Shown: positions 26,220-63,706 of the stretch, in pieces
How the letters are laid out: each line of letters starts with the position of its first letter
Position numbering within the stretch: position 1 is the stretch's first letter
Source: Dysidea avara
Taxonomy: Eukaryota > Porifera > Demospongiae > Dictyoceratida > Dysideidae
DNA: 64,000 nt
Direction of reading: 5' to 3'
Assembly (NCBI RefSeq): GCF_963678975.1
Contig: NC_089276.1
Coordinates: 18,667,272 to 18,731,271 of the forward strand
Made by a program: the position numbers and the translations under genes
The notes under the pieces: model-generated
Databases searched by the model: none
What the model saw: only the letters and a program-made list of their open reading frames with translations
Told to the model about the DNA's origin: nothing

Positions 26220-29200
26220 TTAGTCTTTAATTTCATCCATTATTTCTATAAAAGGCTCTCGACATTGAGTAACATCAACATCATTGTTGTCTTGGTCACT
26301 ACATAAAGAAAAACAAAACATAGTTAATCATTTACATACTGTGTTGAAGTGGCCATGGTTGATTTTTAATACAATATCAAGAGTAAATAATGGAGTACTT
26401 ACTCTTGATAATATTGTATGAGAAATTTTACTAATCTTATGTGTTTTGAAATTGCCATTTATCTGCTAGCTAAGACAAAAAAACTGTTTCCCAACATCTA
26501 TGATATACAGATTAAAATTTTCTTCTAGTACAAGATTCCTAGTATATACTATACATATACTATAATGATTGTGTATGCAGCAATAGATCATGTTGGTTGG
26601 TGCATACAAGTTAACCTCCACTAGGCCTGTGCCGATTTATGCCCAGCATAATTTGGGCCAAAATAGATAGCAAAGAGCATTGCCAGCATAATAGGCACCA
26701 TTTTTGTGCATTGGTCATAAGACAAGCTGAAACTCTTTCACGTTTTATATGATTCAGATTAGGATAGACTAATAAAACAGACAAGCACAGTAAAGAATCA
26801 GGTTGTGAATGGAAGAGTAGTTAGATCAAGACATTGTAATAGAACAATCACTTAATATCTTATTGGAATTAACATTTAAAGATAAATAGGACATGGGAGA
26901 GTACAATGTTTCAGGAGCATAACTGGGAGGAATTTTAGAACATCGCTCAAAGTATCACAGTGATTGACTGTCCATATGAGTTATAAATGCTGACAATGCA
27001 ACAATATGTCACTTGTGCAAACTATAGTACTGTATATAACTATGTAGCATGTATGCTCGTATACAGCTACTCACACAGAACATATAGTAGCATTTCTCCT
27101 TGAGTCTTCATCAACAATAACATAAAATTCAGCCAATGGTATATCAGAATTGTTGAGTGTTTCTTCAGTGTTTTTAGGTTTACAGTGTGCTAACATTTTC
27201 CTGATATTGTTCTTGAACATCAGTAGCAAAATGGTTACAAACAGTATTAGTGGCAATAGCACTACAAACAAGGTTATTCCTACTAGAACATCTGTCTTAG
27301 AACTATCAAGAACTGGTATCACTGATACCAAAACTGTTAACAATAGAATTATACCATCAAATGTATTTAGTGATTTTAGTTGATATGGTCTCAATAGTAC
27401 TTGTACTGCAGCCATTATTACACATGTACCAATTAGTATGTACTGAACTAGAACATTATTGGATGGGGTTGTGATGATTATTATTACTATCACCAGTCGA
27501 CAAATCATGTAATAAGCTGCAAAATAACGATACTTGTCCTTGTAGCACCCCTGGAACTGGTCTAGTAGTGGTTTAAACCTGGTAAAATTTAGTCTTTGGT
27601 TAAGGAATGGTTCAAGTAGGAGCAGAAGTGGTAGACCAATCACAATCACTATTGTACATAACACTGCTACAATAGCATATGGTAAGTGACGACCATGAAA
27701 ATACTCAATATCAGGAGATAGGTATGTGTAAATTGTATCCACATCTAAGAATGTCAGTGTTCTCATTAGCAGTAGTGAAGTAGTCGCCACTGAAGTGTAT
27801 GATAATAACAGCAGAAGGCAAATGACATGGATAATTCCCCTACTGATGAACGATGAAAACCTGTAGGATACTCTTGCTAATAGAATTATTGTTAGAAGAA
27901 TTAAAGAAACAGCAAAGGGGTGCACATAATGAAGGAAATGTTGGTCAATTCCACTCATTCCTTTCACTAAACAAAGTTGTCCTAGAAACTGTGGAGTTAT
28001 TTTGAAAATGCTAGCTACAGTGTTAAAAGTAGTGAGAAGCCATTGTGAAAGGTATAAGGTTTGGTTTAGCAAAGCATCCAGTATGCTATAATAGTATGTG
28101 ATAACATACAAATATCCAATTGGGACCTTGAAGTACATCATAATAAACACTGCTACAACTACAGCTATCCAGTACAAGACTGTTAATATCACTACCAGTA
28201 CTGTCTGTCCTGTTGTACACTTCTCAGTTTTGACACATTCAGCAGAGTCAAATGATAAAGTTAAACCTTCCTTGCAGTTACCACAAGCAGGACCAGATCT
28301 GTGTGATCTACACTGATTTGCTCTTAATGGTGAAAGACTATAGAATCCATCAGTGGTCTCACAGCAGCTAAAGTCACAATAGTTAACAGGACATACTGCT
28401 ACTGTTGGTTGTCCATTCACACTACCAAACCAGTAACCTCTCTTGATAGTTGAATTGGTACCAGAACAAAACACAATATTGTTACCACCATAACATACAC
28501 ATTTCTGGGATTTCTTATAATGCCAAAATCCTGGGTGACATGGTGATAGTGCAACTATTAACATGCTAGAAAAACTACCTTCTTCAGACGTAGGACCAAC
28601 ATGAAATGCAATAGTCAGTGTGTAATTATAAGATGCAACAGATAAAGATTTGTTTCCAGTAATTCTAACGCCTTGGAATGCATTACTACCACATGATACC
28701 AAAATGTCATGTATACCATCAACCTGGTAGTTAGGATCATCCTCGCCAGTAACTTTAAATTGAGCTGCATTAGAAGGTTGATTGTAATAGTCAAATACAC
28801 AAGCATCAAGAGTAATTTCTTCACCGAGCATTATATTATTTAAATAGTATACTTCACAATTTTGGTCAGCATCATATCCATCAATACATATAGCTGGATG
28901 GTAAAGCTCAAGTTTATTTGGAGTAGCAGCTATTTCCTTACTAAACTGAATATTTTGCTGCAAATCTTCACGTATACCACTTATGCTATCATTTAGACAG
29001 CTGCTATTACACGACTTTGTTACAGAGACGTATAGTGAATAACCTGCAATTCTAGCATAGTTATTATGAAACTTAGTACTAGCCTTTGAACTATATTTTA
29101 CTGTCTTTTGAGCAAGTTTTAGATACAATGCTCCACCATATCTTTCTGCTAGATTATTTGAGAATGTGATGTTGGAATAATTGCTAAATGTAGTACTACA

Positions 29201-31525
29201 CTGATCACTAATGTAGACTGCACCACCATTTTGCAGAGCGGCATTACCATCAAAGATTGCAGTGGAATAGTGTCCAAATTTCATACTGGAACCTGATATA
29301 AAAACAGCTCCACCATACTCAGCAGTGTTATTAATAAAGTATGATGATGATGATGATGGTAACAATGAAGTGTGTCCCACAAAAGAAATATCTGACCCAG
29401 TTGTAGAATATATAGCTCCACCTTGATTTAAGGCCTTGTTGTTTATGAATTTTAGAGTGGAAGTTTCATTTAATAGAAGATCAGAATTATCAATATATAC
29501 TGTTCCACCTTTTTGTGTAGCTGTATTGCCAGTAAATGTAGTGGATGAATTACCTGCAAATGAAACATTACAATTATAGGAATGCATTGCTCCACCAAAT
29601 AAGGCAGTATTATTAGTAAACTGCACCATTGAATTGCCTTTACACACAACACGAGAGTTTGTAGTAGAGTAAATAGCCCCTCCACTTTCCCCAGCTTCAT
29701 TGTTATTAAACATGAGATATGTGTTCCCTTTGAATACGATTCTCAACTGATTCTCAGAGTATATGGCTCCACCGGATGTTGTGGCTCTGTTAGAAGTAAA
29801 TGTCATCGTAGATGTCCCTTCAAATACAGCAGTAGATTCATCTTCAGTATATATAGCTCCACCTTCCCATATAGCATTATTGTTAGTAAATGTTAGTGAG
29901 GAGTGTTCTGTAACCAAGATGTCACACTTTCTTCCGTACATAGCACCAGCCCTTTTGGCAATATTATTAGTAAATATTATTGCTGACTTCCCTTCAAATG
30001 AAACAGTTACTCTAGGAAGTGCATTATAGTTGTAAAAAAATATTGCTCCACCAACCCATCCAACCTTATTTTCAGCAAATTCTACTTTGCAATCTTCTTT
30101 AAAATGCATATCAGATCTTTCAGCAGAATAGACAGCCCCACCATGATACAACACAGCGCTATTACCGATAAACCTCACTGTAGAGTTACCTTTAAACAAG
30201 ACAGTGGAGTCACGAAGAGACCTTATAGCTCCACCATGTTTATATGCAGTGTTATTGATAAATGTCACTGTTGTGCTCTCTTCAAATGAAGTTTTACCAT
30301 AATAATTATTGTATATTGCTCCACCATACTCTGTGGCATTATTATAAGAAAACATTATTATAGAGCTTCCTTTAAACGAGATAACAGAATTATATTGAGC
30401 CCATATAGCACCACCATGTTGTGTGGCATCATTGGCAGTAAATTTAACTGTTGAGTTACCATCAAATACAATTTTAGACTGACTGCTGAAAATACCACCA
30501 CCATCAGTAGAATTATTGTGGTCAAATGTTACATTGGATTGTTCGTCAAATACTACATTGGAATAACTGCTGTAAATGCCACCACCATTAGTAGCATTAT
30601 TGTGGTAAAATGTCCCATTAGATTGTTCATCAAATACTACATTGGAATAACTGCTGTAAATGCCACCACCTTCCATTGCTGTGTTACCCTTAAATAACAC
30701 CTTACCATGAATATGAATATTCTCTTTGATAATATATACCGGGACTCCATTGTTGTTAGTGAACTCAGAATTCATCAAAGAAACAGGATCATTCATTTTT
30801 TGAAGGCCTTTGATATAAACAACACTTTTAGCTATGCCATTATCACTAAATTTGCAATTGTGGATTTTAAAGTGCACTTGACTGTATTGTGATGAATAGT
30901 AGATAGATGCACCATCCCCTCTATGATGGTTGTTATGGACAAACATACACTTGTTAATGTACACATCTCCCTTGATATTCGCCAGAGAAATTGCTTGCCC
31001 TCGTGATTGTTGAAAGGTGCAATTCTCAATTGCTATATTGGACATTTTGTGCATAGCCAGCACTGGATTATTTATGGAACCACAGTTTTTCCACACAATG
31101 CCTTCAACAATTATATTATTGCAAGATGAAACCTTTACTCCTCCATTATCATTACAATACACAGTGGGATTATTATATCCTAGTATTGTGATGTTCTCAA
31201 CACCTACTATTGGTACAATTGAAGACAACACCACATCAGTTGTTATATATACCATAACATTATCAGTGAGACTGACCAGAACATGTAAGAAGGAATCACA
31301 AGTACAGTTTCCAGTTGTACAACAGGGAGATATTTCATCTTGACTAATTCCAGATCCGTAACCCAAATCACCAGAACCAGAGGGTTTCATGTACTCATCC
31401 TCCTCACTAACAGTGATCACTACAGTTCCTTTGCTTCCCGCTTCAACATGTTGAATGAACAAGACTGACAAAATGATTAACATTATTCTTGTTAGCAACA
31501 TTGTTACAGTAGCAGTCACCAACAT
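26220..31525 (-). CDS. Subfamily B receptor, copy 1 (exons 27075-31525 and 26220-26298), 1509 aa
   Basis: Likely a plasma-membrane adhesin or receptor. A signal peptide (MLIILSVLFIQHVEA) is followed by an acidic stretch and the conserved SPCCTTGNCTCDSFLH module. Residues about 280-805 hold some 18 repeats of about 28-30 aa with GGA[IVM]Y and FxxN, forming a beta-helix. The stem has PCHPGFW (about 998) and SGPACGNCKEG (about 1082). Membrane helices run from about 1107 to 1430, with KPLLDQFQGCYKD before the sixth. The long frame has a stop at 27071, but a GTGAGT donor at 27074 and acceptor TTTATGTAG ending at 26299 give phase-matched exon 2: DQDNNDVDVTQCREPFIEIM then DEIKD and a stop. Copy 2 has the equivalent exon. 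An 84-bp tandem duplication lies at about 30500-30672. The start is supported by the TATA box 51 bp upstream. Confidence 0.92.
26370..26418. repeat. Palindrome within the intron of receptor copy 1
   Basis: TACAATATCAAGAGTAA (26370-26386) pairs with TTACTCTTGATAATATTGTA (26399-26418). It lies 71 bp upstream of the terminal exon, near the acceptor. Confidence 0.6.
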
Positions 31526-31575
31526 AAGCTAGACCTCAATTGTAAGCATATGACAGCACTTTATGGCAAGGACTG

Positions 31576-31584
31576 TATTTATAT
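31576..31584 (-). promoter_or_regulatory. TATA box ATATAAATA, receptor copy 1
   Basis: Minus strand ATATAAATA ends 51 bp before the ATG at 31525. The same 9-mer lies 51 bp before copy 2 and 35 bp before copy 3. Conserved word and spacing support a core promoter. Confidence 0.75.
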
Positions 31585-31639
31585 AAGTAAGATGACATCA
31601 CATCCTGAGGTCTACACAGGAACATGTGGTTTACAGTGA

Positions 31640-32946
31640 TACACAAACTGTTTTGATATAGCTGCCACATGCTTCCTGTGGTTAGCTATGTATGTTTTTG
31701 CTATAACATATGCATAATAAATTTGATGAACTGCTGAGGCTTACTCAGCATACAGACAAATCACGAAGTCCTTTTCTACACTCAGAGTCCTTAAGAAGTG
31801 GTAATCCAGTGGTGACTATCGGTATCTAACAAAGTAGTACACAGAAGTGGTTAAAAGGCTATCGTGGTCACTGACTCAATGGTGCTTGCCTAGCATCCAT
31901 ATATATGTAAAATACTAAAATAATGGAGCAACTTTATAAGTGTATTGAATCTCCATGAGTTTGCATTACAGTTCTAGAATGTGTGTACAACTCCATGGTA
32001 CTTTGGTCAATCCTCTGCACATGAGTGTATGAATGGATAATTAAGTGCTACTGTATGTGAAGATGATGTGTGGATCTGAAATCGAAGACTACTGTACAGA
32101 GCAAAGTCAATCATTATTAATGTATTTTGAGAATATCCTTGTCCATGTCCATACTTTTTCCCTCTACACCTATTTGTTGTGTGTACATATGGCTGTTCAT
32201 GGAATTCCATCTCATGTGAGTGTGCAAATTTGAGTGAGAGCTTGAGGCAATATGATTAACTTTTTGACAGCTACCCGATTAGCATCTTAAGAAGCCAATA
32301 AGTAACCACAAACAGGTTAGTGGCTTTCCATGAATAAATTAGTGGCAAAAGAAAGGTACCATAGCTAGCCTTCTGAAAGGAATGCTGCAGCGATTTTGTG
32401 TTTATAACCAAGTAGAAATACCTGTGGTAAGCCACGAATCCATGCGTGTCTTGTGCTTCTGTGCTTGTGACAATTTACCATGGCGCTTGTACGTCTTCGT
32501 CAATTATCGGGCGCCTATTGCTACCAACTTTATTGTACATGATAGGCCCTATCAGAGCAAATAATTTTCCAAAACAACACGCTAGGCGATCAAATTTTGA
32601 TTGATGGCAGGTTAAAAATATCTACACAGCCCTATGCACTGTTAAAATTGAGGTGGTCATAGCACACTTAACCAGCAGCACACCCTTGGGGTGCGGGCAC
32701 ATTTTCAGGATACGGTGTGTGAAGCACACAAGACAAGCAGTGTGACTGTATATTGGTGTACATGACACTAAGATTTGTAACTTGAATGAAAAACTATTTT
32801 CTGCTATTATAGATGATTCTAGTGTTAAAAATTAGGTGTTCTTTGGTATCCTTTATCATTTAGAGGTAGTAGGATGTATAGAAAAGCATCAAATATGTGC
32901 TATAAATAAACTCATTTTGTGCTAAGCCATTACACGTCTAGATACC
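31640..32946. other. Upstream intergenic region, nothing firmly supported
   Basis: Flanks the promoter of receptor copy 1. Open frames of 60-67 codons at 32007-32233 lie on both strands and at 32382-32564 on plus. None has recognisable motifs. Confidence 0.35.
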
Positions 32947-33191
32947 CTACAATAAAATGTGTATTTGTGCATATCAAAGAGTGGTATGCTCTAAATGTGT
33001 TGTACATAGCATGCACTCCTGTGGTGTATGTGATGCATAGGAGATGTGTAGGAGATGATAGTTCACATTTGTCCATTAGTTAGCAAATGTGAACCATCAT
33101 CTCCTACACATCACATACTCCACCAAAGTACATTATATGCATATCACATTTAGAGTTCATCACGTATGCACAAATACACATTTTGTTGTAG
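32947..33191. mobile_element. Foldback element, about 115-bp arms
   Basis: The left arm begins CTACAATAAAATGTGTATTT and the right arm is its reverse complement with indels. The inner arms (GATGTGTAGGAGATGATAGT against its complement) are nearly perfect, around a loop of about 20 bp. Target duplication not resolved. No coding. Confidence 0.7.
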
Positions 33192-33729
33192 TGACAGTTC
33201 AAGTTGATGAACAAAGCTGGTATGTTTGTATCAATAAAGTAATCGTTTGCATTAACCAAGAGTAAATTTACTCCTGATTATCATTAACTCATAGAATTTC
33301 CATTAGATAAAACACATTCAAATATTATGTCATCATATTAATCCAGTCAAGAGTAGAGAGATGAAATATTTGTATGCTGATGATCAGTGGGGGCCCGTAC
33401 ATATCTTAAGGTAGAACATGTAAGCCTCAATTGAGTGAAATTAAAACCCACAATCAAATTCCAGGCTTGGTGATATAGGTTTTATATACATTTTGAAACA
33501 ATGTTTAAGTAGAGATTTGAAAGCAGTAAGTTGCTGACTGACTAACAGTGTTGTGTACTGTTTGTAGATTGTTGACATTCCAGGAATGTTACACCAATTG
33601 TGAAACTGCAGATGATGTAATACTTCACAATAATACTATGATGAGTGGTTGACTTCGATAATAAAGCCATCACATTCTACCCTTCCACTCCTGAATGCAC
33701 AAGTGCTTTTTTCAGCTGTACATGTATGG

Positions 33730-34823
33730 TCACACTATTATTATTAGTGGTCACAACACACTAACACATATAATAGTGTGACTAATATGGTGTGCATACT
33801 ACTCTTGTAAGGATGTGCCAGTTTGGACAACAATATCACACCTGTGTTAGTGTGTTGTGACCTAGCCCTAATCCACACTGTAAATACAGTAGTGGTCACA
33901 ACACACTAACACAGGTGTGATATTGTTAATTTAATTACTGTCCAAACTGGCACAGGTGTGGACAGTAATTAAATTTGACAGTAGTTAAATTTGCATTTAA
34001 CAGTAATTAAATTTGCATTTAATTACTGTCCAATGGTGATTTGTCAAACGATAGGCGATACACGATAGCGATACTATCCCGATATTCCGATATGTTCATA
34101 CTATTCCCCAGCCCTAATCCACACTGTAAATACAGTAGTGGTCACAACACACTAACACAGGTGTGATATTGTTGTCCAAACTGGCACATCCTTACAAGAG
34201 TAGTATGCACACCATATTAGTCACACTATTAGTGTGACTAATATGGTGTGCATAGGGTTAGGGTTAGGGTTATTTTTACATGTTTTTTGCATGAATATTT
34301 GCATTTAATTACTGTCCAATGGTGATTTGTCAAACGATAGGCGATACACGATAGCGATACTATCCCGATATTCCGATATGTTCATACTATTCCCCAGCCC
34401 TAATCCACACTGTAAATACAGTAGTGGTCACAACACACTAACACAGGTGTGATATTGTTGTCCAAACTGGCACATCCTTACAAGAGTAGTATGCACACCA
34501 TATTAGTCACACTATTAGTGTGACTAATATGGTGTGCATAGGGTTAGGGTTAGGGTTATTTTTACATGTTTTTTGCATGAATATTTGCATTTAATTACTG
34601 TCCAATGGTGATTTGTCAAACGATAGGCGATACACGATAGCGATACTATCCCGATATTCCGATATGTTCATACTATTCCCCAGCCCTAATCCACACTGTA
34701 AATACAGTAGTGGTCACAACACACTAACACAGGTGTGATATTGTTGTCCAAACTGGCACATCCTTACAAGAGTAGTATGCACACCATATTAGTCACACTA
34801 TCTACTGTATTTACAGTGTGGAT
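33730..34823. repeat. 286-bp tandem array with inverted flanks and TTAGGG units
   Basis: The word AATTACTGTCCAATGGTGAT recurs at 34021, 34307 and 34593, a period of exactly 286 bp, with near-identical copies. Two copies carry three AGGGTT units (about 34254-34275 and 34540-34561). Internal pieces also occur in inverted order (CACACTATTAGTGTG hairpins and AACACACTAACACAGGTGTG in both orientations). The array starts in degenerate pieces near 33730 and ends by inversion at about 34800. Confidence 0.8.
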
Positions 34824-35151
34824 TAGGGCTGGGGAATAGTATGAACATATCGGAATATCGGGATAGTATCGCTATCGTGTATCGCCTATCGTTTGACAAA
34901 TCACCATTGGACAGTAATTAAATGCAAATATTCATGCAAAAAACATGTAAAAATATTATTTGGAAACAAAAATCAGTCTAAAAAGGTTGTTTAGTCTCAT
35001 AGTCAAAAACATATCCATAAATACATCCCTCCTTGCATATCTCTGTGAAGGTAATAAGTAGATTTTCACTATCGTTATACTATCGTCTATCATGAACAGT
35101 GTCTTACTATCATTCGGACATTGAAAAATTCACTATCGCCTGGCAGCTCTA
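34824..35151. mobile_element. hAT-like MITE, TAGGGCTGGGG / CGATAG type
   Basis: The left end TAGGGCTGGGGAATAGTATG is followed by CGGGATAGTATCGCTATCG. The right end, ACTATCGCCTGGCAGCTCTA, reverse-complements to a degenerate match. Flanks GTGTGGAT (34816-34823) and CTATGGAT (35152-35159) agree at 6 of 8. The left half is part of the unit repeated in the adjacent array, so this insertion probably seeded it. Confidence 0.5.
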
Positions 35152-35159
35152 CTATGGAT

Positions 35160-36088
35160 CAATTTTATCAAAGTGTAGTCGTGGATGGGAAATATGATTC
35201 AGCAAAGTGCAAAGACTGCTTTTGTACCATGTTCTAACGAGAGATCATTAAAAACTAATCCATAGAACTGGTAAGAATGATGAAACTAGGTCCTAGGAAA
35301 AGTTTCAAGACTTAACTAGCGTGATTGGCGAGTTGTTTCCCTAGAATGGTACAAAGCAAATGCCCCGGTATCTCAGGATAGGATGGGACCTGACACCTAC
35401 AATTTCTTTGATAGTTTCACTCACTATAAAGGTATCTTACAAGGGTACAATGAAGCAAGCAACAATTTCCTTTCCTGTGAAAAATGCATGGTCCAGTAAC
35501 AACCAGTTGCCTGGTGATACACAGTAAAATGGCACCATTATGGCTATTGGTCACTTAATGGCTCAGAGGAGTCCCTTTAAAGGACAAACACACTTAGCGA
35601 TACATGTTGCAGTAAACAAGAGATGTAGTTTAATAGTTCACAGAGGGTGAGATCATTGTGCTATTAAAGGAAAAAGAGTTGTAGGAGTTCAGAAGCATAC
35701 AGAGCGATGAAACAGCATCCACAAAACAAAGGACTGATCAAGATGAAAAACCAGGGGTACTAGACAGCTTCAAGTTGTTCCTCCCTGAGTGCTAAAGCTG
35801 GAATGAGGCTCTTGAAGAAGAACCTCTGATGCACATGATGGGAAAATCCATGACAAGAACTGGAACGGCACACAAACAGTTTCTCTTGCTGATGGATAAA
35901 TGTATAACAAACGGCAATGCCACATGCATGATGTACATATGTAGCTTAACAGTTAACTTAAGGTCTGTCTACACAACTGTATGTTCTCAATCTACTGCTT
36001 TATTCTTAATTAATCAACCTTGATAAAAATTTTTTTAGCTAATTTTGTTACTGTGACTATACTCAGCTGGCTTCATGTGTGGTACTAG
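35160..36088. other. Unresolved region with decayed-looking coding pieces
   Basis: An open stretch at about 35344-35499 (plus) reads EWYKANAPVSQDRMGPDTYN, then FFDSFTHYKGILQGYNEASN, then a stop. Composition is protein-like but no splice sites or family could be confirmed. The rest is AT-rich and without a supported feature. Confidence 0.25.
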
Positions 36089-36490
36089 CTACACATAAAT
36101 TGGTTGCACTGAAAGAAATTTTAAAAATATGTAGCTAATGCAATTTAGCTATGTGCTTTCATCAGTGACTTGAGTAAAATGTTTCAACTTATACATTGCA
36201 ACTTCTGCTGACTACAATAGCAAGACTGAACAACAAACAGCCGTAAAGCCACATATTAAGAAATTACCTAGATGCTTAATAGAGTTACTGAGTAATACAT
36301 TTATTGGATTATATAACAGAAAGACACTTGTCTACTTACCTATGTATGTACAAAACTCACCAACTTGTGATGTAGTTTTCTCAATGCCTCTACAATCACC
36401 TAAAATTGCCCACTTTGAAATACAGAATGTTTTCCAGTCTATGCATGTGAACCCTTGTGTTTTGTAGCATCCATTGGTCCATCTGCTAAA
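36089..36490 (-). CDS. Candidate last two exons of a Cys-rich protein (36340-36490, 36089-36108)
   Basis: Exon 36340-36490 follows TTAACTTCACAG and ends ATAG|GTAAGT. It encodes FSRWTNGCYKTQGFTCIDWK, TFCISKWAILGDCRGIEKTT and SQVGEFCTYI, with five cysteines. A strong acceptor AAATTTCTTTCAG at 36109 allows a phase-matched join to VQPIYV and a stop (TAG at 36089-36091). Upstream exons were not found. The spaced cysteines suggest an extracellular domain. Family not recognised. Evidence is splice consensus and composition only. Confidence 0.35.
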
Positions 36491-38664: not shown

Positions 38665-38672
38665 TGCTGGAT

Positions 38673-38978: not shown

Positions 38979-38986
38979 TGCTGGAT

Positions 38987-40520: not shown

Positions 40521-40560
40521 GATAAGGCCTCGTTCCTAGTCATTTCCAGGTGCAGTTGAC

Positions 40561-49368: not shown

Positions 49369-49376
49369 GTCATCAC

Positions 49377-49974: not shown

Positions 49975-50200
49975 TTTTTGATTAGATATCACTTCTTTTT
50001 GTATTTGTATACTGCAAAGCTGGCCTATGGCTGGCTTTGGGGCTTTTTTAACCCATGTGTTTTTTTCTTTACCACAGGAAGAAGAAAAGAATTTAAAGAA
50101 GATTTTTAATGCTTCAATTGTTTTTGATTTTATCAGTAATTATACAAATTATATACATATATTTATTACATGCCCATTATTCCCCACAGGATATTTTTTT

Positions 50201-53200
50201 GCAGTTGATCTCTCTACTGGGTGACTTGAAATGTAGCTGAACTATATACAGGATGGTTTCTTTGTAGCTGAACTCTCTACAAGGTGACCTCTTCTAGCTG
50301 GTCTCTCTACAGGGTGATTTGTTTCTAGCTGAACTCTCTACAGGTGATTTGTTTGCAGCTAAACTCTCTACATGGTGGTTTGTTTGTAGCTGAACTCTCT
50401 ACATGATGGTTTCTTTGTAGCTGAACTCTCTATAAGGTGACTTCGTCTAGCTGAACTCTCTACAGGGTGATTTTTTTTTGTAGCTGAACTCTCTACAGGG
50501 TGATTTGTTTGCAGCTGAACTCTCTACATGATGGTTCCTTTGTAGCTGAACTCTCTACAAGGTGACTTCGTCCAGCTGATCTCTCTACTGGGTGATTTGT
50601 TTCTAGCTGAACTCTCTACAGGTGATTTGTTTGCAGCTAAACTCTCTACATGGTGGTTTCTTTGTAGCTGAACTCCCTACATGATGGTTTCTTTGTAGCT
50701 GAACTCTCTACAAGGTAACTTCTTCTCTACAGGGTGATTTGTTGTAGTTGAATTCTCTACAAGGTGGTTTGTTTGAGGCTGAACTCTCTACATGGCGGTT
50801 TCTTTGTAGCTGAACTCTCTACAGAGTGATTTGTTTGCAGCTGAACTCTGTACATAATGGTTTCTTTGTAACTGAACACTCTACAAGGTGACTTCTTCTA
50901 GCTGATCTTTCTACAGGGTGAATTGTTGTAGCTGAACTATCTACAAGGTAACTTCTTCTAGCTGATCTCTCTACAGGGTGATTTGTTTGTAACTGAACTC
51001 TCTGCATGATGGTTTCTTTGTAGCTGAACTCTCTACAAGGTGACTTCTTCTAGCTGATCCCTCTACAGGGGGATTTACTTGTAGCTGAACTCTCTACAAG
51101 TGATTTATTTGCAGCTGAACTCTTTATGTGGTGGTTTCTTTGTAGCTGAACTCTCTACAAGGTGACCTCTTCTAGTGATCTCTCTACAGGGTGATTTGTT
51201 TCTAGCTGAACTCTCTACAGGTGATTTTTTGCAGCTAAACACTCTACATGGTGGTTTCTTTGTAGCTGAACTCTGTACATGATGGTTTCTTTGTAGCTGA
51301 ACTCTTTACAAGGTGACTTCTTCTAGCTGAACTCTCTATGGGGTAATTTCTTTGTAGCTGAACTCTCTATATGATGGTTTCTTAGTAACTGAACTCTCTA
51401 CAAGGTAACTTCTTCTAGCTGATCTTTCTACTGGGTGATTTGTTTGCAGCTGAACTCTCTACATGGTGGTTTCTTTGTTGCTGAGCTCTCTACAAGGTGA
51501 ATTCTTTTACCTGATCTCTCTACAGCGTAATTTGTTTGTAACTGAACTCTGTACAAGTGCGTTTTTGTGGGTGATCTCACTGCAGGTTGATTTGTTTGCA
51601 GCTGAACTCACTAAAGGGTGATTTTGCTTGTAGCTGAACTCCTTGCATTGTGTCTAGTTTCTAGCTGATCTCTCTACAGGGTGATTTGTTTGCAGCTGAT
51701 CTCTCTACAAGTTGATTTGTGTGTAGCTGATCTCTCTGCAGGTTGATTAATTTGTAGCCGATCTCTCTACAAGGTAATTTGTTTGTAACTGAACTGTCTA
51801 TAAGGTGATTTATTTGTAGCTGATCTCTCTGCAGGTTGATTTGTTTTAGCTGAACTCTCTACAGGGTGATTTACTTGTAGCTGAACTCCTTACATTGTGT
51901 CTAGTTTCTAGCTGATCTCACTACAAGGTGATTTGTGTGTAGCTGATCTTTCTACAGGTTGATTTGTTTGTAGCCGATCTCTCTACAGGGTAATTTGTTT
52001 GTAGCTGAACTCTGTACAAGGTGCTTTTTTGTAGGTGATCTCACTGCAGGTTGATTTGTTTGTAGCTGAACTCACTAAAGGGTGATTTGCTTGTAACTGA
52101 ACTCCTTACATTGTGTCTAGTTTCTAGCTGATCTCTCTACAGGGTGATTTGTTTGTAGCTAATCTCTCTACAAGTTGATTTGAGTGTAGCTGATCTCTCT
52201 GCAGGTTGATTAATTTGTAGCCGATCGCTCTACAAGGTAATTTGTTTGTAGCTGAACTCTCTACATGGTGGTTTCTTTGTTGCTGAACTCTCTACAGGGT
52301 GTTTTGCTTGTAGCTGAACTCTCTACAGGGTGATTTGTTTCTAGTTTATCTCTCTACAGGGTGATTTTTTTGTAGTTGACCTCTCCTCAGGGTGATTTGT
52401 TTCTAGCTGATCTCTCTACAGGGTGATTTTTTGTAGCTGACCTCTCTTCAGGGTGATTTGTTTCTAGCTGATTGCTCTACAGGTTGATTTGTTTGTAGAT
52501 GAACTCTCTACAGGGTAATTTGCTTGTAGCTGAACTCCTTACTTTGTGTCTAGTTTGTAGCTGATCTCTCTACAGGGTGATTTGTTTGTAGCTGATCTCT
52601 ATACAAGTTGATTTGTGTGTAGCTGATCTCTCTGCAGGGTGATTTGTTTGTAATCGATCTCTCTACAGGGTAATTTGTTTGTAGCTGAGCTATCTATATG
52701 GTGATTTGTATGTAGCTGATCTCTCTGCAGATTGATTTGTTTTAGCTGAACTCTCTACAGGGTGATTTGTTTCTAGCTTATCTCTCTACAGGTTGATTTG
52801 TGTGTAACTGATCTCTCTACAAGCTGATTTGTTTGTAGCTGATCACTCTGCAGGTTGATTTGTTTCTAGATGATCTCTCTACAGGTTGGTTTGTTTGTAG
52901 CTGAGCTCTCTGCAAAGTGTTTTGTTTGTAGTTGATCTCTCTACAAGGTGATTTTTTGTAACTGACCTCTCTTCAGGGTGATTTGTTTCTAGCTGATATC
53001 TCTACAGGTTGGTTTGTTTGTAGCTGAACTCTCTACAGGGTGATTTGCTTGTAGCTGAACTCCTTACATTGTGTCTAGTTTGTAGCTGATCTCTCTACAG
53101 GGTGATTTGTTTGTAGCTGATCTCTATACAAGTTGAATTGTGTGTAGGTGATCTCTCTGCAGGTTGATTTGTTTGTAGCCGATTTCTCTACAAGGTAATT

Positions 53201-55165
53201 TGTTTGTAGTTAAACTGTCTAAAAGGTGATTTGTATGTAGCTGATCTCTCTGCAGATTGATTTGTTTTAGCTGAACTCTCTACAGGGTGATTTGTTTCTA
53301 GCTTATCTCTCTACAGGTTGATTTGTGTGTAACTGATCTCTCTACAAGCTGATTTGTTTGTAGCTGATCTCTCTGCAGGTTGATTTGTTTCTAGATGATC
53401 TCTCTACAGGTTGATTTATTTATTGCTGATCGCTCTAAAGGTTGATTTGTTTGTAGCTGAACTCTCTGCAAAGTGTTTTGTTTGTAGTTGATCTCTCTAC
53501 AAGGTGATTTTTTGTAGCTGACCTCTCCTCAGGGTGATTTGTTTCTAGCTGATCTCTCTACAGGGTGATTTTTTGTAGCTGACCTCTCTTCAGGGTGATT
53601 TGTTTCTAGCTGATTGCTCTACAGGTTGATTTGTTTGTAGATGAACTCTCTACAGGGTAATTTGCTTGTAGCTGAACTCCTTACTTTGTGTCTAGTTTGT
53701 AGCTGATCTCTCTACAGGGTGATTTGTTTGTAGCTGATCTCTATACAAGTTGATTTGTGTGTAGCTGATCTCTCTGCAGGGTGATTTGTTTGTAGTTGAT
53801 CTCTCTACAAGGTAATTTGTTTGTAGCTGAGCTATCTATATGGTGATTTGTATGTAGCTGATCTCTCTGCAGATTGATTTGTTTTAGCTGAACTCTCTAC
53901 AGGGTGATTTGTTTCTAGCTTATCTCTCTACAGGTTGATTTGTGTGTAACTGATCTCTCTACAAGCTGATTTGTTTGTAGCTGATCACTCTGCAGGTTGA
54001 TTTGTTTCTAGATGATCTCTCTACAGGTTGATTTGTTTGTAGCTGAACTCTCTGCAAAGTGTTTTGTTTGTAGTTGATCTCTCTACAAGGTGATTTTTTG
54101 TAACTGACCTCTCTTCAGGGTGATTTGTTTCTAGCTGATATCTCTACAGGGTGATTTTTTGTAGCTGACCTCTCTTCAGGGTGATTTGTTTCTAGCTGAT
54201 ATCTCTACAGGTTGGTTTGTTTGTAGCTGAACTCTCTACAGGGTGATTTGCTTGTATGTTGAACTCCTTACATTGTGTCTAGTTTGTAGCTGATCTCTCT
54301 ACAGGGTGATTTGTTTGTAGCTGATCTCTCTACAAGTTGAATTGTGTGTAGCTGATCTCTCTGCAGGTTGATTTGTTTGTAGCCGATCTCTCTACAAGGT
54401 AATTTGTTTGTAGCTGAACTGTCTATAAGGTGATTTGTTTGTAGCTGATCTCTCTGCAGGTTGATTTGTTTTAGCTGAACTCTCTACAGGGTGATTTGTT
54501 TGTAGCTGAACTCCTTACATTGTGTGTAGTTTGTAGCTGATCTCTCTACAGAGTGATTTGTTTGTAGCTGATCTCTCTACAAGTTGATTTGTGTGTAGCT
54601 GATCTCTCTGCAGGTTGATTTGTTTGTAGCCGATCTCTCTACAGGGTAATTTGTTTGTAGCTGAACTCTCTATAAGGTGATTTGTTTGTAGCTGATCTCT
54701 CTGCAGGTTGATTTGTTTTAGCTGAACTCTCTACAGGGTGATTATTTGTAGCTGAACTCCTTACATTGTGTCTAGTTTCTAGCTGATGTCTCTACAGGGT
54801 GATTTTTTGTAGCTGAACTCTCTACAGGGTGATTTGTTTCTAGCTTATCTCTCTACAGGTAGATTTGTGTTGATTTGTTCATTGCTGATCACTCTAAAGG
54901 ATAATTTGTTTGTAGCTGAACTCTCTCCACAGTGACTTGTGTGTAGCTGAATTCTGTGTAGCTGAATTCTCTAGAGAGTGACTTAATTGTAGCTGAATTC
55001 TCTACAGGGTGCATGACTTGTTTATAGCTGAACTTTCTTCAGTGTGACTTGTAATGTTCTGAATCTCTATAGTGATATATTTGCTTAACTCTCCACATGG
55101 TGACTGTCTTCTTGCTGAACTGTCTATAAGATTAACTGTTTACAGCTGAACTCCCTACAGAATAA
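50201..55165 (+). repeat. Satellite, about 160 copies of a 31-bp unit with higher-order structure
   Basis: The consensus is close to CTGAACTCTCTACAGGGTGA followed by TTTGTTTGTAG (31 bp), with AACTC/ATCTC and CAGGG/CAAGG variants. Marked variants recur about 1142 bp apart: CCTCTCTTCAGGGTGATTTG with ATTGCTCTAC at 52441 and 53583, and CTCCTCAGGG at 52384 and 53526. This shows a higher-order repeat about 37 units long. The left part (50.2-51.6 kb) follows different variant patterns. No coding is supported. Confidence 0.93.
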
Positions 55166-56040
55166 CTTGTGATGCAATAAAATTCTATAATGGAGTAAAT
55201 AAATTAGCCGAATGCTCTATTAGGGTGACTGTTCTATTAGAGTATCTCGATCTCGCATTTGCTACACGGAGTTGGCTTTCGAATCATAACTCAGTGGTTT
55301 GTAATCCGATTCTTCTGTACTACTGCAAGTACTTTCTATGAAGATTATTCCAGCTGTACACCGATTTTCAGCTCATTGCTCTAAGCGGTTTGCCTAGTAG
55401 GCGTGAAAACTAATACTTTTTTATTCCTAAAAATCGATCGCGTAATTGTGACACAGGTTGGGTTTTGTGTCATATCTCCGTGGTCTTTATCTCGATTCCT
55501 TTCAAACCACCAAAAGGCACTCCTACGATGGTTACTCCATCTACATAGCAATTTTCAACTCATTCCATGAAGCGGTTTACCCTGTAGGCGTGACAACAAA
55601 TCGATCTTGTTTTACGCGAATAATCGGTCATAACTCCTGAACCATTCATCGGATTTGTACCAAAGTTGATGCTAGGATTCGCCGTTGGACTCCCTTTCTG
55701 TGTGCCAAATTTCAAGGCGATCGGAGTACGCGTTTGCTTGTTATAGCAATTTTTGCAAGTGTGCGAAAAGACGAAGAAGAAAAAAAAAAAAACGAAGAAA
55801 AAAAAACGAAACTTTGGCCACTCGTATCTCGGAAATGGCTTGAGTGATTTCCTTCAAATTTGGAATGTAGACTCCCCTAGCTGGCGGGCAACTCTGCAGC
55901 AAATTTGGTTCCAATTGGATGAGGTATCACCGAGATACAAATGTGTGAGAATGACGTTTTCTTTCTTCCTGTCAATATACTCACGGTGTGGCGCGCCGGC
56001 TTCTTGGGCCGCACGACACACTATCGTGTGTCTTGATTCC
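55166..56040 (+). repeat. Conserved repeat tail adjoining the satellite
   Basis: GC-richer than its surroundings. It starts with CTATTAGAGTATCTCGATCT (55240 region), a word also found in the hAT-type MITEs. It contains GTGCCAAATTTCAAGGCGAT and AAGTGTGCGAAAAGACGAAG at about 55710-55780, which recur after the gap at 63907-64000. It ends with a palindrome ACACACTATCGTGTGT (56019-56034), also found near 11830. The open frame at 55753-56103 begins in a poly-Lys A run and is not taken as a gene. Confidence 0.65.
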
Positions 56041-57362
56041 TTGACATCTGTGGTCACCAAAGCTGGGTACAACTACTCTTGCCTCTACTTCTTTTCTATA
56101 TAAGATGTTTTGTAATTGGAAGATTGATTGTCATTATTTAGTAAATACGTATGAAGATTATGAGAGATTGACAAGTACATGTGTTATTATGAAAGTCATT
56201 GTGATGAAGAGGTATCACTACAAAATGATAAGACTCAGCAACATGACAATCACCACTTACAAGGTATTTCTGCTATATTAAAAGGGGAAGCAGTATTTAC
56301 ATCACAGCGACTACTAGCTGGTTTATTGTTGTAAGCATTGACGTCGTGACCAATAAAAGTGGAGGGCCATACCCCCTCTGTCTCCACTACCTATGAACAT
56401 GATGATTCTAATGCTTTAAATATATAAATTTGTAGCTCTAATGGTTTAGGAGGTATGCATCATGTACCATGCAAAGTACCCATGATTACCTTTTGCAAAA
56501 ATCATATAAAATGCACACCAAAACACACCTTGAAAAGCATCCTTTAGCTCAGAACCACAATCTTGTGGTCCTTTGCAGGGAACTTTTACTTGTAGCTTAT
56601 CTTGTATTATCAGTATGGTTGTATAGCTTGTAGTTGTGTTTTCTAGTAGTTGTGTTTTGTATTGTGTTTATTGCTGTATGTGCTCTGGTAGGGAAGAACG
56701 ACTTTTTCCGACTACCATGAGGTTAAACAAATAATTAATCAATCACTAGTGAGTATCAAGTGAAAAAGAGACAGTACCTGTACTGTAACTGTACTTCAGA
56801 TAAAACTGAAATTTGCCATTTTATTCATATTCATATTATTAGTTGTTATTCAATAATATTATGGTCACTCTTAATACCTTCTAAGAAACTGTTAGGCTAA
56901 TTAGTATAGCTAGAACACTCTGTATACATAACATGTAATGTAATTTATTACATTGCAATAAATTGAAGATAACATGCTTGCTGTGGGTGTAGAATATGTG
57001 CCTGCATATAGTTATTATTACCTAAGCACAGTGATGTCAGTTTGGTAATCATGATACACAGTTCGAACATTAGTTTTAAAAGTTTCAGGTCACATGAGGT
57101 GCCATGCCATTGAAGATTAAGTTACATCAAAAGAACGAATCAAATGCCCTAACAGTACTGAAGAAACAAAAAGAGTTAGCTAATAAAGAACAAAGATGGT
57201 CTAGCTGTACAGCTTGGTACGGTGAAAGGGTAGTGAATATAGCTAGGCAAATAACACTAGACTGTGTATATATGAGCACATACTCCCCTGTAATAATATA
57301 AAATATCACCATTGCCCCCTGGAGTATTCCATGGCAACCAACATGTGCACACACAAATATAC
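56041..57362. other. Intergenic with one hairpin
   Basis: GGTAGGGAAGAACGAC and TTTTTCCGACTACC (about 56689-56722) form a short stem-loop followed by ATTAATCAATC, resembling the 3' end of a retroposed element. There is not enough to name it. No gene is supported. Confidence 0.35.
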
Positions 57363-57750
57363 ACACTCACTCAAGTCACTCACTCATTCACTTACTCACT
57401 CACTCATTCACTTACTCACTCATTCATTCACTTACTCACTCACTCATTCATTCATTCACTCACTCATTCACTCCCTCATGTACTCACTCACTCATTCATT
57501 CACTCACTCATTCATTCACTCACTCATTCACTCCCTCATGTACTCACTCACTCATTCATTCACTCACTCATTCATTCACTCACTCATTCATTCACTCACT
57601 CATTCATTCACTCACTCATTCATTCACTCACTCATTCATTCACTCACTTACTCACTCACTCATTCACTTACTCACTCACTCACTTACTCACTCATTCAAT
57701 TATTCAACTCACTCATTCACACTGATTCAATCAACCCATGCACGCACTCA
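57363..57750 (+). repeat. (TCAY)n tandem array
   Basis: ACTC, ATTC and ACTT tetramers alternate over about 390 bp. A block containing CCCTCATGTACTCACTC is duplicated at about 57472 and 57532, 60 bp apart. Two overlapping open frames of about 140 codons (THSLTHSFIH type) are by-products of a stop-free repeat. Confidence 0.95.
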
Positions 57751-59207
57751 CTTATATATATAATATAAACATTAAAATTTTGGTTGCGGTGAACTGTGTT
57801 TAATATAGCTAGTACAGTATGTAAATACAGTAAATATGTAACATCTACCACTCACAAACAGCTACACTTAAAGCTATTAGTACCACAGCAACCCAGCTAT
57901 AGCTCTTCCTAAGAACCACCCAAAATGTTTTTATGACTATTTGTAATAATTTGTTCAAATACACTATTAATAAGCCTGCAAACAATGAAAACCACACCTG
58001 AAAACTACATTCAGCTACAGTAGCACAATATTAAATTAGCACCATAACTTTAGAAAGGAAGTGGCCAGAATGAAAAAAAAGGAAATTTTTAGGGAACACA
58101 CTGAAAACATACTGCAAGCAAAATCAATCTATGTACCAAAACAAACCACCACCCAATCCTATTGCACCTAAGCATTTTGCTCAATACTTTTACCCACCTG
58201 TTATGCCACAAAGTTTGCTACCAAACTTGATGCATCCATAGTAACAGTAAGTTACAACATTACCAAATATTGCCATCAACACATCTAACTGTTCCATTTA
58301 ACTCCCTGTGATTATTATACTTTATAGTGATGTGCAGTAAGTACAGTAACAGTGGTTGTAATGTGTTACTTGCATGGACAGTATAACATTAACTATATGC
58401 ACTTAATACATCAAGCATGATCATATGCTTTAGAAAAATTGTCGTCAAAAATTAAACTTACACAAATGTCCATGCTGCTGTATCTCTGTATATACATAGT
58501 ACAAAGTGACAACTTGAAAGGCTATTTATTAGTTAGTCATTTACAAATAATTTTTTATCCCAGCAGTTTTCCATAAGGCATGGTTGATAATATACCTCTG
58601 AGGGTATATATCTGATTGGAGGAAACAGCCTTACATTCAACAGTACATATATGTGCTCAAGACAATGCCCCATATATACATATATGATGAGAAAGCATAT
58701 ACGTGTGACTTAAAAAGTACTTCATGCATACCAATGTGATAGATAGCAGCCTAGTATGCAGGCATAAAGCCTTTATCTGTTTGCAATTTCAACTTTTCAG
58801 TAAGCAAATATGGCCAGAGATCATCAACAGTCATATAGTTTTAAGTCAATATTTAATACTAGAAATATTAAGTGAATTTGCAACTAATCATTTGGTCTTA
58901 AACACTTTTCACACATATGCAAACACTTTTTGCACCATATAGAGAGTACTGGATACCATGGCTGCTGTAGCTATGCAAAGTAGTTGGAACATTCACACTT
59001 GTGTGAGTCCCTCTTATTATGGGTTAGTCTTATACGTAGCTGAAATCCAACCATACAGTGTACATGATCTACCTTTGTATACATATTAGGATTGTTTTGG
59101 CAATGAAAGTTTGGAGAAGATTCTATTAATCCAAATATGGTGGTTAAATTATTACCCATGATAATATTGCATCATAGCTAATGTAGTAATGTTGCCAACC
59201 CCATCAC
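57751..59207. other. Intergenic upstream of receptor copy 3, nothing supported
   Basis: AT-rich, with scattered open frames under 75 codons that have no motifs. Confidence 0.35.
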
Positions 59208-59216
59208 ATATAAATA
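59208..59216 (+). promoter_or_regulatory. TATA box ATATAAATA, receptor copy 3
   Basis: Identical 9-mer to the other two subfamily B promoters, 35 bp before ATG 59251 rather than 51. Confidence 0.72.
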
Positions 59217-59250
59217 ACTCAAACTGCTGAGGTTTTTGTAACCAACTGAA

Positions 59251-62200
59251 ATGGTGACTGCTACTGTAACAACGCTTCTATCAATAATAGTGATAATCAT
59301 TTTCCCTTTACTTTTCATTCAACATGCTGAAGGAAGCAAAGAAATTGTAGTGGTTGTTGCTGTTGAGGAAGAAAATTACATCAAATTCTCTGGCTCTGGT
59401 GATTTGAGTGATGTTGTAAGTGATCAGGATATATCTCCTTGTTGTACAACTGGAAATTGTACTTGTGATTCCTTCTTACATGCTCTGGTCAGTCTCACTG
59501 ATAATGTTACGGTATATATAACAACTGATGTGGTGCTGTCTTCAATTGTACCAATAGTAGGTGTTGAGAATATCACAATACTAGGACATAACAATCCCAC
59601 TGTGTATCTTAATGGAGGAATGAAGATTTCATCTTGTAACAATGTCATCATTGAAGGTATCACCTGGAAAGGTTCTGCAGGTGGCACCAAAAAGTCTAAC
59701 AATCCAGCAATACTAATGTTCAACTCATCCAATTTAACAATTAATAACTGCACCTTCCAACAATCACAGGGGCAAGCACTCGCACTATCTAATGTGATTA
59801 AATATATAAACATCAACAACTGTATGTTTGTACATAACAATCTTTACAGGGGTCATGGCGCAGGAATCTACTACACATCTATGCTTCAAACTGGTGAGCA
59901 CCATCACATCATGTTAACAGTTGACAATTGTAGTTTCACTGACAACGGTAAAGCTCGAAGTGTGGTTTACATTAATGGACATAGCAATGCAAATGATTCT
60001 GTTTTGTTACAAAATTCCACATTCATAAACAACAAAGGAGTATCTGTTTACATTTCCAATCAACATATTCATATCAGTGGCAACCTTTTATTCAAAGACA
60101 ACACAGCAAAGAGTGGCGGAGGTATTTTTAGTGCTCATTCAAATATTAAATTTGATGCAAACTCTCTTGTAAACTTTCTTAATAATTCAGCTTCTCTTGG
60201 TGGAGCCATATATTCTATTCACCACTCCATTATTTTGATTGAAGGTAACTGTATGATGCAATTTATTGATAATAGCGCCCTTAGTGGTGGAGCAATATAC
60301 TCTGGTTTTGACTCTTCATTATCATTTATTGAAAACTCTTTGGTAACATTTAGCAACAATGATGCCACAGGAGCTGGTGGAGCAGTAAGATCAGTTGAAT
60401 ACTCTAAAATCTTTGTAAAAGATAATTCTACCATAAAATTTATAAATAATATTGCATCAGGTGGAGCAGCCTTACATTGTTCTAAACATTCCATAACTTC
60501 ATTTGAAGAAAACTCAAAGGCAATATTCTCCAACAATACAGCCAATATACATGGCGGAGTTTTCATTTCTGAGATAAATTCTGTTCTCTCCTTTAAAGGA
60601 AAAACCACAGTAACCTTCACTAATAACAGTGCAACATACAATGGTGGAGTTATATATTCGCTTAGTAACTCGCGTATATATTTTATAGAACAATCGACCG
60701 TAGTATTTACTAATAATATAGCAAGTTCAGGTGGAGCTATATTTTGTTTTAACTATCACTTTCACTCTTTAATCACATTTAGTGGAAATTCAATAACAGT
60801 TTTTTTTAACAACAGTGCCACAGATGGTGGAGCACTGTTACATCGTCTTTGTAATAGTTTGGCCAAAGGACGATCCTTCTTAACATTTACTGAGAATACA
60901 GCTGTACATGGAGGAGCTATATCTTCCAATTTAAATTCTTTTGTCTCCCTTAGCGAAAATTCATCTGTGAATTTTACCTCTAATAAAGCTTCATCTGGTG
61001 GAGCTTTATTTCTCACTGACAGTTCATTTGTTTTATTTAGAGGGAACACACGAGTTGCAGTAAATGACAACAAGGTTGGAGAGAATGGTGGAGCTATTTA
61101 CTCTACTAAAAATTCTGCAATTGTATCTAAGGATAATTCAGAGGTGATATACTCTACAAATAGTGCTATGACTGGGGGAGCCGTGTTTTCAGACAAAAAT
61201 GGCTACATAATAGTTGCTGGAAACTCAACAGTAACATTTCTTAACAACAGTGCATCATCTAGTGGAGCTTTACATTCACATTTATCTAATATTTCATTTG
61301 TAGACAATTCCATGACAACTTTCATTGGCAACACCGTCACACAAAATGGTGCAGCTGTGTACTGTTTCAGTGCTCACATCCAATTGTATTCTACTATAAA
61401 CTTTGTGTCTAACAGAGCTACACAAAGTGGTGGAGCTATATGGTCATCAGGTGGTTCACGTATTTCTTTTAATCAAAAGTCATCATTTATCAAAAACAAA
61501 GCTGAAAATGGCGGGGCTATTTTTATATCAGATTCTAGTATAACATTTGAAGAAAATTTGATTGTGTTTGATGCTAACATTGCTGTACAAAATGGTGGAG
61601 CTATACATTCCACAGATAGTTCCATTATTTATTTTAAAGGAAATCGTTCATTATTATTTATCAACAACAAAGCTGGAAATGGCGGAGCTGTTTCTATATC
61701 AGATTCTAGTGTGACATTTGGAACTCACAGTATTTTTTTTGATAACAATACTGCTCTACATAGTGGTGGAGCCTTGTACCTCAGTGATAACTATAACATA
61801 ACATTTGATAACAATACCAATGTTACATTTAGTAATAACAATGTTGATGGGTATGGTGGAGCTATATATACAATATTGACCAAAACCACAACACGTTTCA
61901 CCTTCAATGGTCATAGCCATTTTCATAACAATTATGCTAGAGTTGCAGGAAACTCACTATACATAACTGTGACAAAATCGTGCGATAACACTTGTTTAAA
62001 TAATAACATTGTCAACATAAACAAAACAATTAGGCAAAGCGGTCAGTTTGGCAAAGAGATAGCTGTTACTCCAAACAATATTAAACTCTACCCTCCAGCA
62101 ACTTGTACCGCCAGTACAGAAAGTTGTGAAATATATACCATAAACAATATAATGCTGGGTGAAGAAATTATTTTTGATGCTTGTGTGCATGATCATTTCG

Positions 62201-63706
62201 GTCAACCTTCTAATGCAGTACAGTTTACAGTTACTGGCGAAGATGATCCCAACTACCAGGTTGATGGTGCACATGACATTTTAGTATCGTGTGGTAGTAA
62301 TGCATTTCGAGGAGTCAGTATTACTGGAAATAAATCTGTACCCATTGTATTTCATAACTACACATTAACCATTGCATTTCACATTGGTCCCACATCCGAA
62401 GAAAACAGTTTTTCCATCAAGCTAATAGTTGTGTTATCACCATGTCACCCAGGATTTTGGCATGATAAGGAGTCAAAAAGATGTGCATGTTATGATGATA
62501 GTGACATTATGTTCTGTTCTGGCACTACTTCAACCATCAAGAGAGGTTACTGGTTTGGTAGTGTGAATGGACAACCAACAGTAGCAGTATGTCCTGTTAA
62601 CTATTGTGACTTTAGCTGCTGTGAGACCACTGACGGATTTCATCATCTTTCACCATTAAGAGCAAATCAGTGTAGATCACACAGATCTGGTCCTGCTTGT
62701 GGTAACTGTGAGGAAGGTTGGACTCTATCATTTGATTCTGCTGAATGTGTCAAAACTGAGAAGTGTACAGCAGGACAGACAGCACTGGTAGTGATATTAA
62801 CAGTCTTATACTGGATAGCTGTAGTTGTAGCAGTGTTTATTTTGATGCACTTCAAGGTCCCAATTGGATACTTGTATGCTATCACATACTATTATAGCAT
62901 ACTGGATGCTTTGCTAAACCAAACCTTATACCTTTCACAATGGCTTCTCACTACTTTTAACACTGTGGCTAGTATTTTCAAAATAACTCCACAGTTTCTA
63001 GGACAACTTTGTTTGGTGAAAGGAATGAGTGGAATTGACCAACAGTTCCTTCATTTTGTACACCCCTTTGCTGTTTCTTTAATTCTACTAGCAATAACTT
63101 TATTAGCAAGGATATCCTACAGATTTTCATCATTCATCAGTAGGGGAGTTATCCATGTCATTTGCCTCCTACTGCTATTGTCATACACTTCAGTGGCAAC
63201 TACTTCACTACTGTTAATGAGAACACTGACATTCTTAGATGTGGATAAGATTTACACATATCTATCTCCTGATATTGAGTATTTTCATGGTCGTCACTTA
63301 CCATATGCTATTGTGGCAGTGTCATGTACAATAGTGATTGTGATTGGTCTACCACTTCTGCTCCTACTTGAACCATTCCTTAACCAAAGACTAAATTTTA
63401 CTAGGTTTAAACCACTACTAGACCAGTTCCAGGGGTGCTACAAGGACAAGTATCGTTATTTTGCAGCTTACTACATGATTTGTCGACTGGTGATAGTAAT
63501 AATCATCACAACCCCATCCAATAATGTTCTAGTTCAGTATATACTAATTGGTACATGTTTAATAATGGCTGCAGTACAAGTACTACTGAGACCATATCAG
63601 CTAAAATCACTTAATACATTTGATGGCTTAATCCTACTTTTAACAATTTTGGTTTCAGTGATACCAGTTCTTGATAATTCTACGACAGATGCACTGGTAG
63701 GAATAA
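59251..63706 (+). CDS. Subfamily B receptor, copy 3, truncated by the assembly gap
   Basis: MVTATVTTLLSIIVIIIFPL begins a signal peptide ending near QHAEG. The SPCCTTGNCTCDSFLH module follows, then GGA/FxxN repeats over residues about 289-870, and a stem with PCHPGFW and SGPACGNCEEG (about 1149). Membrane helices start near 1174. 1485 codons are visible before the N run at 63707. The membrane part is almost identical to copy 1 (LYLSQWLLTTFNTVASIFKI in both), whereas the beta-helix repeats are its own. The last two helices and the short tail exon are missing from the assembly; the frame appearing to continue after the gap is repeat sequence, not this gene. Confidence 0.9.

Follow-up and report, generated by a model that had tools for sequence, protein, structure and literature searches.

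The window analysed here, a 64,000-nucleotide stretch of DNA (C5:18667272-18731271 of a 550.8-Mb genome in 108 contigs), contained four long intronless open reading frames (ORFs) of one protein superfamily, three of type I (B27, C42 and D59) and one of type II (A14). Their products join an ectodomain made of repeats of the type known from chlamydial Pmp proteins to a Cys-rich block, a polytopic membrane part and a conserved tail. The family occupied at least 237 places in the genome (163 of type I and 74 of type II), and the genes that were compared displayed mosaic divergence, with a ratio of nonsynonymous to synonymous divergence (dN/dS) below 1. This large one-frame, intronless animal family may consist of surface recognition or adhesion receptors diversified as cassettes, an explanation to which we give close to an even chance; on this view the proteins would lie at the cell surface, bind ligands, signal and act in recognition. 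The initial annotation, which had seen in this DNA a bacterial-type beta-helix fused to a conserved membrane domain, was confirmed in its observation and supported in part in its interpretation.

Architecture of the proteins

Gene B27 (27071..31525, minus strand) was complete and intronless, and its 1484 amino acids (aa) displayed, in this order, a signal-peptide-like start, a beta-helix ectodomain, a post-helix domain, a Cys-rich block, a membrane domain and a tail. C42 (42331..47382, plus strand, 1683 aa) was likewise complete. D59 (59251..63706, plus strand, 1483+ aa) was cut at about the end of the eighth transmembrane (TM) helix by an assembly gap (N run, 63707-63906), so that the three full-architecture copies initially announced came down to two; its last helix and tail were not seen in the 1.3 kb beyond the gap, a stretch resembling repeat DNA. 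The initially annotated region began at 26220, but the B27 ORF ends at 27071 and nothing of the family was found at 26220. The second subfamily annotated at 14315-18094 corresponded to the type II gene A14 (14288..18094, minus strand, 1268 aa), with degenerate repeats. A fifth copy, also of type II (1..1872, minus strand), was cut by the window start, frameshifted and devoid of about 209 bp that A14 has, its DNA being 94-97% identical to 14415-16472.

The Pmp-like repeats proved real and far above shuffled expectation. Residues 266-800 of B27 contained 12 GGA[ILV] motifs (mean 0.08 and maximum 2 in 2000 shuffles) and 23 FxxN motifs (mean 3.9, maximum 10, same number of shuffles), with a period of 29-30 aa; GGA-type motifs numbered 17 in the whole of B27 and 24 in C42. 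The three type I ORFs strongly matched PF02415 (Chlam_PMP; E = 2.4e-40, 6.1e-52 and 1.1e-35) and TIGR01376 (POMP_repeat; E = 4.5e-43, 2e-58 and 3e-41), and A14 was marginal (E 0.27 and 0.016, respectively). A phmmer search with B27 gave no match at 0.1. The repeats are predicted to form a right-handed parallel beta-helix, as had been anticipated: the AlphaFold2 model of the B27 ectodomain displayed a long beta-helix over residues ~88-823 (29057..31264, minus strand), with continuous short strands and a predicted local distance difference test score (pLDDT) mostly of 70-95. With hhalign, the A14 ectodomain aligned to the type I profile at a probability of 82.9 (E 9e-6), over the final rungs and the domain that follows the helix. 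Elsewhere in the genome, a 3050-aa frame with 60 GGA-type motifs was observed (L044, G000:C8:30932000-30941500); its beta-helix may surpass the 43 coils that the excerpt of PMC11166332 describes as record breaking.

Bacterial repeats of this type end in an outer-membrane barrel. None of the four window proteins matched an autotransporter barrel or a Pmp middle domain in Pfam at E <= 1, and hydrophobic helices were found instead, in line with the initial annotation. On the minus strand of B27, the constant C-terminal part opens with the Cys-rich juxtamembrane block (28217..28549, aa 993-1103), which is followed by the membrane domain (27200..28216, aa 1104-1442) and the tail (27071..27199 including the stop codon), whose family-conserved end reads NATICSV. 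Hydropathy over the type I rows delineated eight strong segments and one weak region at 145-191, close to the eight or nine helices first suggested, and loop charges alternated as nine helices with N-out/C-in orientation would predict; we thus infer nine membrane helices, an arrangement that would place the N-terminus on the outer face and the tail in the cytosol. The LDxFQxxYKD motif occurred in all four window ORFs (LDQFQGCYKD in B27, 27536..27565, minus strand) and would lie in a basic loop on the inner, cytosolic side.

Conservation was followed in an alignment of 25 members, composed of the four window rows and 21 of 30 loci; the nine left out comprised duplicates of genes already present in the window (L011, L014 and L015), loci that were partial or had an internal stop (L012, L016, L026, L031 and L032) and L040, near-identical to L036. 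Many Cys, Pro and LDxFQxxYKD residues were invariant or nearly so. The membrane part of A14 was 26-27% identical to that of type I, with many invariant Cys and the LDxFQxxYKD motif in common. Among 23 type I tails, 21 ended in [NH]A[TYI]I followed by another one to three residues (C42 and L017 did not), and many members displayed VIDDxMRKNATI-C-[DE]-[MV]; the hydrophobic last residue could make this a PDZ-type docking end.

No known family was confidently assigned to the membrane part. In the Cys-rich block, 13 of the 25 members weakly matched DUF7630, the best of them, with E 0.0033, still falling short of the cut-off. PF06011 (fungal TRP-like) was matched by a single one, L020, over positions 280-396 of 426 (E 0.00083), with 18.7 bits for a curated cut-off of 28.5. 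A whole-genome search with this profile gave seven candidates and two matches at E <= 0.1 (0.033 and 0.045), none above cut-off; both were family places, one of them L020, and both covered the same part of the profile. This is a weak lead, which may point to distant kinship and not to membership. The seven Pfam families matched by the 25 members at E <= 10 did not include a G protein-coupled receptor 7TM family, and a tblastn search over 69 and 77 pattern-matching stretches of prokaryote and viral contigs revealed no relatives of the membrane part. The corresponding prokaryote scan for the ectodomain used non-repeat head patterns and is uninformative on the repeats.

Constant ends and variable middle

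Synonymous divergence (dS) was compared among four genes of contig C5, namely B27, C42, D59 and E904 (L046), in six pairs. The N-terminal block (aa 30-130; 31136..31438 on the minus strand in B27) was alike in all six (dS 0.10-0.20), and so were the Cys-rich block (dS 0.11-0.33) and the membrane part (dS 0.14-0.45). The middle (aa 131-992; 28550..31135, minus strand), composed of the remaining head, the repeats and the post-helix domain, displayed dS values of 0.71-1.78 in five pairs and 0.28-0.53 for B27-C42. By region, the latter pair gave 0.53 over aa 131-265, 0.28 in the repeats and 0.38 in the post-helix domain, and the others 1.17-1.78, 1.03-1.17 and 0.71-1.39, respectively. C42 was closest to B27 in the middle and most distant from it in the membrane part. 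The dN/dS ratio was 0.21-0.51 in five of six regions (0.21-0.37 in the membrane part, 0.45-0.51 in the repeats) and highest in the constant head (0.44-0.90). Since it reached 0.90 there, the head is not kept alike through protein constraint.

A similar picture came from three genes of contig C2, whose membrane parts were all alike (dS 0.09-0.12); upstream, two of them remained close (0.16) and the third stood apart (0.89-0.92). In five of six divergent pairs, examined at 30-codon resolution, identity stepped up about 0-90 residues before GYWFG, near the start of the Cys-rich block; pairs with L035 displayed an additional alike patch near -140. Because synonymous sites are affected too, constraint alone would not account for the pattern, and homogenisation or exchange at the DNA level is indicated. 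Such exchange is well supported for a few genes. The initial annotation had described a variable repeat number over a constant membrane part; several of the compared genes displayed a variable middle between constant ends, and such an organization of the whole family is at present a supposition.

Family size and genomic surroundings

A 65-residue membrane segment was used as the first type I query, and all of the 150 places scored (the best of 773 candidates) matched at E <= 6e-18. A second type I query (best 150 of 654 candidates scored) added 13, for a union of at least 163 places; since both queries rank candidates alike and some places are less than 2 kb apart, this figure sets a minimum for the matching segments and should not be read as a gene count. 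The 150 places of the first query were spread over contigs C1-C13, with 79 on C2; 91 lay in frames of at least 1200 aa, 98 in frames of at least 1000 aa and 40 in frames below 500 aa. For type II, 81 scored candidates yielded 90 match rows; once fragments belonging to a single gene had been joined by hand, 74 places were left, 52 of them in frames of 1228-1433 aa, and none was recognised by eye in the type I lists. PF02415 did not lend itself to a census, its model being only 19 residues long: of 2095 candidates, 150 were scored and a single one matched at E <= 0.001. Twelve type I places were gathered at C8:4.06-4.85 Mb. Several of them had equal scores and equally long frames, 2043 aa in four cases and 1747 aa in two, which resembles a cluster formed by recent segmental duplication.

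Symbiont or contaminant DNA was considered as a source and rejected, since the window lies within a 42-Mb contig and the cathepsin L genes of the genome appear intron-bearing. Their coding sequence seemed intron-interrupted in the stretches read, and intronless genes are therefore not the sole kind in this genome. A silicatein search led to cathepsin L at the three places read among its matches. The best match to an Antennapedia homeodomain query was 53% identical; 12 candidates gave eight matches, of which three lay less than 12 kb apart on C10. A lack of Hox-like homeodomains suits a sponge or a ctenophore, and a sponge, as assumed in the initial annotation, is the likely source.

Repeated DNA was also observed elsewhere in the window. 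A 43-bp stretch (26219-26261) recurred in the DNA beyond the gap that follows D59. A 4.8-kb tandem array of about 137 units of ~31 bp (50186-54950) lay within a strong AT skew, and its unit, together with an adjoining inverted-repeat element, reappeared just past the same gap. A 286-bp unit was present in 2.8 head-to-tail copies with 100% matches (34011-34801), followed by an inverted piece (34802-34955). An inverted pair of ~477 bp (6081-6557 and 10833-11307) was 97% identical, and further dispersed pairs were found at 24815/38672 (91%) and 37677/41157 (83%). The stretch 57364-57720, open in three frames (THSL/LTHS-like peptides), is a degenerate 4-bp repeat, (CACT)n, of ~89 copies and was not counted as a gene.

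Interpretation and relation to known systems

If the family does consist of cassette-like receptors, a long extracellular right-handed parallel beta-helix with rungs of ~29-30 residues would stand as a rod behind the signal peptide, face the ligand and hold the variation in its exposed surface and its length. The Cys-rich neck, the nine-helix membrane domain and the short conserved cytosolic tail would form a common transducing module. Gene conversion or repeated recombination would keep the N-terminal ~100 residues and the Cys-rich and membrane parts alike at the DNA level, while the middle would be replaced, exchanged or allowed to diverge. The outcome would be many recognition surfaces on a single signalling chassis, most likely used in recognising self or kin, or microbes.

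Several observations weigh against this scheme. A Foldseek search with the ectodomain model gave 229 matches at E <= 10 and none at E <= 0.001, and the VIA-align rows fell mainly within model residues 5-501; most of the 50 listed Foldseek matches, of low TM-score, are presumably beta-helix proteins. The model of the membrane part was of low confidence (pLDDT 34.1 for the four window rows); owing to its failure, it is hydropathy and three basic loops that argue for nine helices. The tail was not net basic (6.6 Lys+Arg versus 6.0 Asp+Glu per row). No region displayed a dN/dS above 1, so that positive selection on any region as a whole, the ectodomain included, is unsupported. The strong dS step stemmed from few independent genes: among 23 loci (253 pairs), ten pairs had a membrane identity above 80%, and a step of more than 6-fold was found in three, of which two share L035 and the third is B27-E904 (hence two of the nine further close pairs beyond the latter). 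The others comprised one 2-fold step, two of 1.3-1.7-fold, three pairs with upstream dS below TM dS and one virtually identical pair. B27-D59 displayed no sharp step and a gradual rise from about -140. Misalignment can raise dS artificially where there are repeats, an effect that is weaker for the post-helix domain. Finally, the best topology of the repeats was not rejected by the membrane part in an approximately unbiased test (p 0.089); with no strict topological conflict, the mosaic claim rests on branch lengths.

The last points bear on whether differing selective constraint by itself, with no conversion or exchange, produced the constant ends and the variable middle. The lower dN/dS of the membrane part relative to the repeats and the seven close pairs out of ten devoid of a strong step are what this would predict. 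We nevertheless consider it quite improbable, as dS shifts by a factor of about 5 to 12 within a single gene pair, the non-repeat post-helix domain included, and the constant head reaches a dN/dS of 0.90. Moreover, which genes are most alike depends on the region: of the other three, C42 is the one most similar to B27 in the middle and the least similar in the TM part. If the genes were mobile, selfish or retrocopied and had no role in the organism, one would expect intronless copies dispersed over C1-C13, many of them in short frames (40 of 150 places below 500 aa) and some broken within the window itself. Yet the type I copies of the window resemble one another in DNA only inside their coding frames (blastn, E <= 1e-10, >150 bp), dN/dS is 0.21-0.51 in five of six regions, and 91 of the 150 places lie in frames of at least 1200 aa; we consider this origin very improbable.

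The two remaining alternatives concern function. The proteins might be receptors for microbes or particles in feeding or innate immunity. Glycans of bacteria or algae would then be bound by the beta-helix, the membrane part would set off uptake, and variety would follow the microbes and not self. The family is large and expanded, many of the best-fitting solved beta-helices bind or cleave glycans (alginate lyases, epimerases, phage tailspikes), and, according to the excerpt of PMC6701047, individual Trichomonas Pmp proteins increase adhesion and many have endocytic tail motifs. A common fold reveals no ligand, however, the Trichomonas NPx[YWF] motif was not found by eye in the 23 listed type I tails, and sequence alone does not separate microbe from self-recognition; we regard this use as unlikely, although of some weight. 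Less probable still is a TRP-like/FLC protein acting as ion channel or mechanosensor, for which the rod would be an extracellular lever or tether and adhesion a secondary property. TRP-like/FLC proteins have about nine helices and a lumenal N-terminus, which is compatible with it, and L020 and the other genome match to PF06011 are family places. Against it, that match is confined to one of 25 members and lies below cut-off, the ML-like lumenal domain was not matched in the Pfam search of the four window proteins, the 25-row membrane profile found nothing better than E 0.91 among PDB sequences, and the membrane model failed.

Among known systems, chlamydial Pmp proteins share GGA[ILV]/FxxN rungs, a predicted surface beta-helix, a multigene organization and variable length (excerpts of PMC11166332 and PMC10715098); they end in a Pmp middle domain and a 12-stranded outer-membrane barrel, in contrast to the Cys-rich block, helices and tail encoded here on an animal chromosome. 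Trichomonas vaginalis has 48 Pmp-like proteins, a eukaryotic family at the cell surface that combines Pmp repeats with a TM domain and a cytosolic tail and of which tested members raised adhesion; as described in the excerpt of PMC6701047, its conserved C-terminal TM domain and NPx[YWF] tail differ from the polytopic part, Cys-rich block and other conserved tail found here. The likeness to TRP-like/FLC proteins lies in the weak match of L020, the number of helices and the lumenal N-terminus, their ectodomain being quite unlike. The sea urchin 185/333 family, a diversified invertebrate recognition family not known to be related in sequence, resembles the present one by description, with many related genes of mosaic make-up. 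PF02415 covers over 100 non-chlamydial species (excerpt of PMC10715098), and animal members may already be within that entry, unremarked. In the open-access literature, no report was found of a polytopic animal family of Pmp-type proteins, sponges included. The new element is the combination of a Pmp-type beta-helix with a membrane part unlike those of chlamydial and Trichomonas Pmp proteins, eukaryotic Pmp repeats being already known from the latter (excerpts of PMC6701047, PMC11166332 and PMC10715098).

On the fullest reading, an animal free of Hox-like homeodomains, probably a sponge, would possess some hundreds of single-exon receptors with a bacterial-type beta-helix. Recombination would swap their ligand-facing middles between constant ends, and they would serve recognition of self, kin or microbes through a new nine-helix transducer in place of Ig, LRR or SRCR domains; taken together, these elements make a rather unlikely whole. 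To our knowledge, the receptors by which sponges separate self from non-self remain an open question. Sponges do so with remarkable specificity (excerpt of PMC5450542), and this family is a concrete, testable candidate for sponge recognition receptors. If this is true, an animal has put the Pmp fold to use in a diversified ectodomain and, should the membrane module truly be kin to the fungal TRP-like domain, an orphan animal domain would be tied to a channel family.

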